A stretch of 64,000 nt of DNA from Actinacidiphila epipremni (GTDB lineage Bacteria; Actinomycetota; Actinomycetes; Streptomycetales; Streptomycetaceae), in NCBI RefSeq assembly GCF_012034175.1, contig NZ_JAATEJ010000028.1, forward strand, positions 1 through 64,000, written 5' to 3'. Below, one piece after another: positions 2,302-5,869 of the stretch. Positions within the stretch are counted from its first letter, which is position 1; each line of letters opens with the position of its first letter. The position numbers and the translations under genes are program-made. The notes under the pieces were generated by a model that saw nothing but the letters and a program-made list of their open reading frames with translations, was not told the origin of the DNA and did no database searches.

Positions 2302-2394
2302 TCAGCGCTTGCCGTCGCCGCTGCCGGCGGGCCGGCCGCCGCCCGGGTCGGTCGTGCAGCCGCCCTTGCGGCAGTTCACGTCGGGGCAGGACAT
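2302..2394 (-). CDS. 30-residue Cys-containing peptide coupled to the GNAT gene
   Basis: A 30-codon reading frame begins 5 nt after the GNAT stop codon. It has a convincing ribosome binding site (AAGAGGTGA) that overlaps the end of the GNAT gene. The peptide starts MSCPDVNCRKGGCTTDPGG, with Cys at 3, 8 and 13 and a Gly/Pro/Arg/Lys-rich tail. Regular five-residue Cys spacing and tight coupling favour a real product. It could be a small metal- or thiol-related peptide or a peptide modified by the neighbouring acetyltransferase, but no family is recognised. No signal peptide or membrane segment is present. The function is unknown. Confidence 0.5.
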   Translation of the reverse strand: MSCPDVNCRKGGCTTDPGGGRPAGSGDGKR

Positions 2395-2399
2395 GGTGG

Positions 2400-2963
2400 T
2401 CACCTCTTCTCTGCGAGGTCGTCGGGCACACAGTCGAACAGCAGCTTGTCGACCCGCCTGCCGTGCCACAAGGCCGCGTTGCGCAGCCGCCCGGCGGCAC
2501 GGAATCCCGCCTTCAGGTAAGCGCTGACCGCGGGCGTGTGGGGCGCGGGCACCTCCAGCCACACCGAACTGAGCGACGCGATGGCGAACGCCCACTCCAG
2601 GGTCAGTGCGGTGGCCTCGGCCGCATAGCCCCGGCCGCGCTGCTCCGGGGCGATCACCAGGGTGAACTCCGCGTTGTTGACGGACTGGTCCACGCTGAGC
2701 GCGGCCGTGCCGACCGGCGTCGCGCTCACCGTGTGGATCACTTCGAAGAGCTGGTAATGAGCCGACGTATGGGCGGAGCGGAAGCGGGCCCGGAAGACCT
2801 CCCAGGACACCGGCCAGCGGGCGCCAAAACCGACGACGGTCGCCGGGTCGGTCTCCCATCGGTGGTATTCCTGCATCATCTCTTCCCTCGCCAGGGCCAA
2901 CGCCAACCTGCTGCCGGCGCGCAGCGGAACGGGTGCGGTCGTCGGGGGGATGTCGGTGGTCAC
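2400..2963 (-). CDS. GNAT-family N-acetyltransferase (RimJ/RimL-like)
   Basis: The 187-residue product has the GCN5-related acetyltransferase fold. The acetyl-CoA pyrophosphate loop QRGRGYA is at residues 108-114, and the C-terminal AxxxYLKAGF motif (near 147-157) is typical of the RimJ/RimL subgroup. These enzymes transfer acetyl groups from acetyl-CoA to amines, often protein N-termini or small molecules. The acceptor cannot be predicted. The gene is followed after 5 nt by a 30-residue Cys-containing peptide gene, which may be co-translated. It is divergent from glgA across a 434-bp region. Confidence 0.9.
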   Translation of the reverse strand: MTTDIPPTTAPVPLRAGSRLALALAREEMMQEYHRWETDPATVVGFGARWPVSWEVFRARFRSAHTSAHYQLFEVIHTVSATPVGTAALSVDQSVNNAEFTLVIAPEQRGRGYAAEATALTLEWAFAIASLSSVWLEVPAPHTPAVSAYLKAGFRAAGRLRNAALWHGRRVDKLLFDCVPDDLAEKR

Positions 2964-3397
2964 TTTCTGTCTCTCCTACGTGTGCCCGGGCTGCGGCCGT
3001 TGCAGCCGTCCATAAAGCGTCAATCCCGAAGGGCCCCCGGCGGGCCGGATCCGCGGAATTGCACGCCTGTACGGGCCGGGTGTGCTTAGGCACGCGGCCA
3101 CCGCCGGTCGCACAGCGCGACCGGCGGTCGCGGCCGGTGAGGCCGGGCGGCCCCAGCAGTCGCTCCGATGGGCTGACGCACCATCAGACATCGGAGCGGG
3201 GCCCTCCGCTGGAGAACCGGTTCACAAGCGGACCCCGTCCGGGGCGTGCCGAAGGTGGCCGAAACCGATACCGGCCAGACAGCTCGCCCGGGGGCGGTAG
3301 CCGGAGCCGGATCGGGGGAAAGGACTCAGGCACGGAAGGCGCGAACGCCGGGTGGTCCCGGCACGGGCCGGGAAGTGTCGAGGACGGGAGAGCACCG
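2964..3397. other. 434-bp divergent intergenic region and glgA leader with two hairpins
   Basis: No convincing gene is present here. The stretch contains a perfect 11-bp hairpin (arms 3101-3111 and 3117-3127, loop ACAGC). A second 10-bp inverted repeat (arms 3161-3170 and 3189-3198) encloses an 18-nt loop. The decamer palindrome GAACCGGTTC is at 3214-3223. The two hairpins lie on the glgA side and could form a structured 5' leader or an attenuator. Short open frames here lack ribosome binding sites and family resemblance. Confidence 0.5.
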
Positions 3398-4651: not shown

Positions 4652-5869
4652 ATGCGCGGTAATCCTTCGGTGCTGGGGATAGTGCTGGCCGGCGGCGCCG
4701 GGAAGCGGCTGATGCCGCTGACCGCCGACCGGGCCAAGCCGGCGGTGACCTTCGGCGGCACGTACCGCCTGGTGGACTTCGTGCTGTCCAACCTGGTCAA
4801 CGCCGGGATGATGCGGATCTGCGTGCTCACGCAGTACAAGTCGCACTCGCTGGACCGGCATGTGACCACCACCTGGCGGATGTCGAGCCTGCTGGGCAAC
4901 TACGTCACGCCGGTGCCCGCGCAGCAGCGGCTCGGCCCGCGCTGGTATCTGGGCAGCGCCGACGCGATCCTGCAGTCGCTCAACCTCGTGCACGACGAGC
5001 AGCCCGACTACATCGCGGTCTTCGGCGCCGACCACGTCTACCGCATGGACCCGCGGCAGATGCTGGAGCAGCACATCGAGCACGGCGCGGGCGTCACCGT
5101 GGCCGGCATCAAGGTGCCGCGCACCGACGCGTCCGGCTTCGGGGTCATCACGCCCGCCGCCGACGGCGTCACCGTGGAGCGCTTCCTGGAGAAGCCCGCC
5201 GACCCGCCGGGGCTGCCGGGCGACCCGGGGCATGTCTTCGCCTCGATGGGCAACTACCTGTTCACCACCAAGACCCTCATCGACGCCCTCTACGAGGACG
5301 CCGAGGACCCGCAGTCCGTGCACGACATGGGCGGCAGCATCCTGCCCCGGCTGACCGCCGCGGGTGTCGCGCAGGTCTACGACTTCGACACCAACCACGT
5401 GCCCGGCGAGACCGCCCGCGACCACGGCTACTGGCGCGATGTCGGCACCCTGGACGCCTACTACGACGCCCACATGGACCTGATCTCCGACCAGCCCGCC
5501 TTCACCCTGGACAACCGCCGCTGGCCCATCTACACCCACCCCGGCCAGCTGGCGCCCGCCAAGATCGCCGCCGGCGGCATCGTGGGGGAGTCGGTCATCA
5601 GCCCCGGCTGCGTCATCCGCGGCCAGGTCACCCGCTCGGTGCTCTCACTCGGCGTGGTGGTGGATCCGGGCGCGGTCGTCCAGGGCTCGGTGCTGCACGA
5701 CGCGGTACGGATCGGGCGCGGCGCGATCGTGCGCGGGGCGGTGCTGGACAAGAACGTGGACGTGCCGCCCGGCGCCACCATCGGCGTGAACCCCGACCGC
5801 GACCGCGAGCTCTACACGGTGTCCGCGGGCGGGGTCATCGCGCTCGGCAAGGGGCAGCGGGTGGGCTGA
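4652..5869 (+). CDS. glgC: Glucose-1-phosphate adenylyltransferase
   Basis: The 405-residue enzyme converts glucose-1-phosphate and ATP to ADP-glucose, the committed donor for glycogen and maltose-1-phosphate synthesis. The nucleotide-binding signature [13 protein letters not shown] near residues 10-22 and the following RAKPAV are diagnostic. Further family motifs are [12 protein letters not shown], the GSADAI element and [10 protein letters not shown]. The C-terminal third holds the left-handed beta-helix repeats typical of the family. Length matches the usual 400-430 residues. It follows glgA in the same direction, so both may share a transcript. A stem-loop overlaps its stop codon. Confidence 0.96.

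Follow-up and report, generated by a model that had tools for sequence, protein, structure and literature searches.

The described system closest to the locus reported here is the albusnodin-type lasso-peptide cluster, made up of a precursor, a cyclase, a B protein and the acetyltransferase AlbT; in albusnodin, Lys10 is acetylated, and without albT no product was seen (PMC9266682). Three further systems invite comparison. The first is the sigmaE (ECF) regulon of Streptomyces, for which PMC6767563 names mreB and two L,D-transpeptidases as targets conserved across the genus and gives the promoter spacer as 16 or 17 bp. The second is the CX4CX4C bicycle peptides of phage display, CX4CX4C peptides being capable of instant uptake of As(III)/Bi(III) in vitro (PMC11211329), and the third the small accessory proteins, or morons, of phages.

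The window – the whole stretch of DNA that was analysed, 64,000 nucleotides (64 kb) long – comes from an 8.2-Mb genome of Actinacidiphila-group bacteria, soil actinomycetes of the family Streptomycetaceae. Near one end, between glycogen genes and a SigB/F-like sigma factor gene, an acetyltransferase gene is followed by a very short frame:

2302..2394, minus strand: microprotein gene, 30 codons plus stop, translation MSCPDVNCRKGGCTTDPGGGRPAGSGDGKR
2344..2394, minus strand: conserved core, codons 1-17, M-S-C-P-D-V-N-C-R-K-G-G-C-T-T-D-P, with M1, S2, C3, C8, R9, G12 and C13 invariant
2400..2412, minus strand: ribosome binding site AGAGAAGAGGTGA, overlapping the GNAT stop codon (2400-2402)
2400..2963, minus strand: GNAT acetyltransferase, 187 aa, of the albusnodin acetyltransferase group (PF13302, E 2.8e-14)
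3006..3027, minus strand: block upstream of the GNAT, GGATTGACGCTTTATGGACGGC / TGACGCTTTATGGACGG, kept in orthologs while the surrounding DNA drifts

The initial annotation had placed a ribosome binding site at the end of the acetyltransferase gene and a start 5 nt past its stop, and both observations are exact: the site (GAGAAGAGGTGA) overlaps the GNAT stop codon, and the TGA (2402-2400) and the microprotein ATG (2394-2392) are separated by a gap of exactly 5 nt. Across the microprotein family, the median Shine-Dalgarno energy is -15.4 kcal/mol, compared with -8.8 kcal/mol for the best starts of large ORFs and -4.8 kcal/mol for random positions. Beyond codon 17, the frame continues as a variable tail of Gly, Pro, Lys and Arg.

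The GNAT itself is 36-45% identical to the GNATs of albusnodin-type clusters and groups with them in a tree. On plasmids of Pseudonocardia, Streptomyces and Amycolatopsis, its relatives lie directly behind an albusnodin-family lasso precursor, a cyclase and a B2 gene, and others sit inside lasso clusters with recognisable precursors (two in the window's genome and one in another Actinacidiphila genome). Tblastn searches with cyclase and B2 sequences matched those two clusters of the window's genome and gave no match in the 64-kb window or the GNAT-linked loci. Because its relatives belong to albusnodin-type clusters and the window has neither a cyclase nor a B2 gene, the window GNAT looks like a lasso-peptide acetyltransferase now sited with another ribosomal peptide. 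The likeness to albusnodin-type clusters lies in a ribosomal peptide with a conserved lysine beside a GNAT; the locus differs in having no cyclase, B protein or lasso precursor, and its peptide in having no leader and no (S/T)EDKR motif, and in carrying three cysteines. The two albusnodin-type clusters of the window's genome (L238, G000:C2:138000-148000; L239, G000:C25:418500-428500) each contain a cyclase, a B2 gene, a GNAT and a precursor ending in TEDKRYQYG or SEDKRRAYNS. GNATs of the same group also occur in three Streptomyces genomes (L052, L053 and L054), with no lasso cyclase or B2 gene in the surrounding DNA examined.

Regularly spaced cysteines had first drawn attention to the small frame, and they are indeed present at positions 3, 8 and 13 (C-x4-C-x4-C), but the spacing alone tells little: DNA matches to it occur nine times on the two strands of the window, against 2.8 expected from shuffles (largest shuffle, 8). 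We therefore dropped the spacing as evidence in itself, and the case for a gene rests on conservation. GNAT orthologs are present in 24 of 35 Actinacidiphila genomes, and the microprotein follows all 23 whose downstream sequence is assessable, that is, not cut by a contig end. Behind every one of these, the core MSC[PS][DN][VI]NCRKGGCTT is kept; the C-terminus of the GNAT, the gap between the two genes (4 to >100 nt) and the tail of the microprotein drift. For the 17-codon core, dN is 0.021 and dS 0.463, a ratio of 0.044. Given its presence behind every assessable ortholog and a core dN/dS of about 0.04, the 30-codon frame is a real coding gene under purifying selection. The frame was to be discarded if it proved confined to its immediate species; it is conserved across Actinacidiphila, and the GNAT-coupled microgene that had been suggested is real, conserved and closely coupled to the GNAT.

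The GNAT-linked copies belong to a larger family of 23-32-residue proteins with the motif MSCxxxxCRxxGC[ST][ST]. M1, S2, C3, C8, R9, G12 and C13 are invariant in its bacterial and phage members; the strict pattern used for counts fixes several of these residues by design, cysteines included, and a profile search that fixes none of them recovered the same kind of member, together with additional copies elsewhere in the same genomes. By the strict pattern, 26 of the 35 Actinacidiphila genomes carry one to four copies. Some 360 genomes sampled from other Streptomycetaceae yielded only three strict-pattern matches, judged to be chance, and no credible copy. Pattern matches in G116, G197, G229 and G306, along with weak class-level matches, were put down to chance on grounds of frequency, sequence or frame. 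Neither Pfam nor NCBIfam holds a model for the window microprotein, and the family was not found described in the literature on the motif or on acetylated short peptides.

Coupling to a GNAT, which the initial annotation took as the defining feature, does not define this family. Most members are without a GNAT; in one species (G023, L133), the syntenic glgA-sigF locus retains the microprotein without a GNAT ortholog, and the peptide is also encoded by phages and by stand-alone genes that have a promoter of their own. The GNAT link is thus meaningful in the window lineage and secondary for the family. Other copies follow an L,D-transpeptidase gene (as at G000:C6:135687 in the window's own genome) or a xylanase-like gene, or stand at other single places. 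A recurrent neighbour is F10, a protein of about 95 aa that directly precedes the microprotein in 11 of 12 F10 copies (F10 loci: L118, L121, L122, L124, L127, L131, L135, L136, L137 and L139) and is often near HTH-DUF5753 and DUF6879 genes; it has no Pfam or NCBIfam model and is confined to Actinacidiphila among the 160 genomes searched. The DUF5753/DUF6879/F10 cassette was considered as a universal partner and rejected, being absent from many loci.

Free-standing copies tend to share an upstream signal. In five of the eight single-copy locus types, [GT]GAACC-N16/17-CGTC occurs within 250 nt upstream, which is the sigmaE-like layout of a GAAC-type -35 element, a CGTC -10 element and a 16-17 bp spacer. 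Eleven of the 12 sigmaE-like sites in 663 kb of strand sequence precede the peptide; the motif was defined after inspection of the upstream sequences, so the computed probability is too favourable, yet the concentration of sites is still large. In the window's genome, GGAACC-type sites number 76 and matches to the reversed pattern 23. As a positive control, GGAACC-N16-CGTC is found there 123 nt before mreB (L209, G000:C1:327611). The single copies resemble members of the sigmaE regulon in having sites like that of mreB in the window's genome and a spacer of the published 16 or 17 bp, and one locus type adjoins an L,D-transpeptidase gene. They differ in that the abstract of PMC6767563 does not list the peptide as a target, and in that the GNAT-linked and F10-linked copies alike are without the site. 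A sigmaE-like promoter was looked for and not found before the GNAT unit, where the conserved block at 3006..3027 is a putative promoter of another type for the GNAT-peptide unit.

The family also extends to phages. In IMG/VR, eight contigs carry the peptide and another two match the pattern, one of these doubtfully; L185, with a weak ribosome site and a diverged tail, is a questionable member. The phage contigs derive from uncultured actinophages. In four phages (L167, L169, L170 and L171), the gene lies between those for a DnaB-like helicase and endonuclease VII. Two other contigs, L172 and L173, have the look of prophages from hosts resembling Actinacidiphila, and a phage integrase is encoded in L172. 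In L168 and L174, the peptide is a single gene preceded by a TATA-like stretch and followed by an inverted repeat. This repeat, long and similar in the two contigs (GCGGCCC...GTCGTGAGG...CCCTCACCACC...GGGCCG), lies about 40-90 nt past the peptide stop and is a candidate terminator or structured RNA. Collections of cultured phages and of plasmids contained no copy, and the phage peptide had no match in PHROGs, although neighbouring genes did. Presence in phage replication modules, in prophage-like contigs – one with an integrase – and in host genomes too recalls phage accessory proteins or morons, from which the family differs in having many chromosomal copies at ordinary host loci, seemingly with a stress-type promoter, and in matching no phage family model.

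What such a protein might do is suggested mainly by its N-terminus. AlphaFold gave the peptide no confident fold (mean pLDDT 57.6), and a sequence search of the PDB returned no match to a solved structure, the best hit (E 0.86) being a chance match to a zinc-finger fragment. Removal of the initiator Met by methionine aminopeptidase is expected to leave a Ser-Cys N-terminus. Three invariant and evenly spaced thiols, this Ser-Cys end, a tail left free and the lack of a leader all speak for a cytoplasmic peptide, one that would become ordered on a ligand. The spacing of the thiols is identical to that of the CX4CX4C bicycle peptides of phage display; those are artificial, have random loops and are displayed outside the cell, whereas this is a natural family with fixed RxxG and TT and a long tail. 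Metal or thiol chemistry, as originally proposed, is plausible; metal binding in particular we hold tentatively, as rather less than an even bet.

As the best explanation of the whole – close to an even chance, if slightly below it – we favour a cytoplasmic three-thiol microprotein of a mobile family that, in the window lineage, has been joined to a repurposed lasso-type GNAT; its metal-binding and acetylation parts are what we infer. The three thiols of the N-terminal CX4CX4C module, perhaps with the Ser-Cys N-terminus, would bind one thiophilic metal ion or, alternatively, the module would clip onto a host protein. Binding would take place in envelope stress or during phage growth, and the Gly/Pro/Lys tail would be disordered. 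In the window lineage, where the peptide gene is coupled to an acetyltransferase related to the lasso-cluster enzymes, both products would be made together, and the GNAT would probably acetylate the peptide, most likely on Lys10, which all GNAT-linked copies share. As GNAT-free copies persist, acetylation would tune the peptide instead of being required.

The main alternative, rather unlikely in our estimation, makes the peptide a phage-derived regulator whose N-terminal module binds a host protein – polymerase, replication factor, protease or repressor – with the cysteines serving folding or a shared zinc and the GNAT acting as a bystander or tuner. It draws on the place of the gene in phage replication modules beside helicase, endonuclease VII and primase, on the prophage-like contigs and the HTH-DUF5753/DUF6879/F10 cassettes, and on the copies that do without a GNAT. 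It accounts poorly for the lack of any partner common to all loci, for the absence of a fold in the AlphaFold prediction and for the chromosomal single copies with a stress-type promoter of their own.

Returning to the three-thiol microprotein and its GNAT, we consider acetylation of the peptide by its neighbour a serious possibility that falls somewhat short of probable. Lys10 is found in all 22 GNAT-linked members and in 25 of 35 others, the remaining 10 having Arg or Thr at this position, and it is the sole lysine in three GNAT-linked members. The GNAT-linked members form one clade of close relatives, which makes Lys10 conservation weak evidence: it suggests, without proving, that the peptide is a substrate of the GNAT. 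In A. rubida, the GNAT and the peptide are fused into a single open frame in which the internal start is kept; an accidental frameshift could account for this fusion. At a locus out of synteny in another genome (G009, L141, about 4739-5075), a peptide that is extended at its N-terminus (MKGFILRSCDIPGCRKGGCST...) comes after a decayed GNAT fragment of the same type. Both the grouping of the GNAT with albusnodin-type acetyltransferases and the fused frame lend weight to an acetylated peptide.

The suggestion of a modified peptide has thus become stronger as regards acetylation, but there is no sign of a cyclised RiPP precursor with a leader and a core: both leader and maturase are missing, the N-terminus of the peptide is its conserved part and the tail its variable one, and a GNAT alone is linked, in one lineage. 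This bears on a second alternative, which we think improbable, namely a two-gene RiPP-like system in which the GNAT acetylates the peptide, on Lys10 or at the N-terminus exposed by Met removal, and the acetylated and perhaps oxidised product is exported as a signal or antimicrobial. The kinship of the GNAT with enzymes of lasso-peptide clusters, the need for albT in making albusnodin, linkage to the peptide in 23 of 23 assessable cases, and the A. rubida fusion together with the second, decayed pair all speak in its favour, set against a locus without leader, protease, cyclase or other maturase, a peptide conserved at its N-terminus, the peptide retained without a GNAT in G023 and the phages that carry it without one.

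It is less likely still, to the point of being a minor concern, that the small frame is a cis-acting leader or coupling frame for a downstream gene, its product being irrelevant. Such a role would suit the phage contig L169, where the frame appears to overlap the endonuclease VII start, and the window, where an esterase gene on the same strand lies 274 nt downstream of the microprotein frame; it fits badly with the low dN/dS of the core, with the conservation of residues besides cysteine and with downstream genes that vary between loci and are often on the opposite strand. A chance open frame without a product, for which the commonness of the cysteine spacing in window DNA and the lack of a Pfam or NCBIfam match might be cited, is in effect refuted by the selection test and by protein-level conservation between paralogues at unrelated loci and between phages that differ in base composition.

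In its most far-reaching form, the favoured reading would describe a natural three-thiol metal(loid)-binding family common to a bacterial envelope-stress response and to actinophages, with one branch brought under the control of lysine acetylation by a lasso-derived acetyltransferase; taken as a whole, this is improbable. What the locus presents is an orphan lasso-type acetyltransferase tied to a ribosomal peptide that is not a lasso peptide, a pairing that would offer antibiotic-tailoring enzymes a way of turning into regulators, and a strongly selected family shared by phages and bacteria whose members are so short that gene callers usually drop them.
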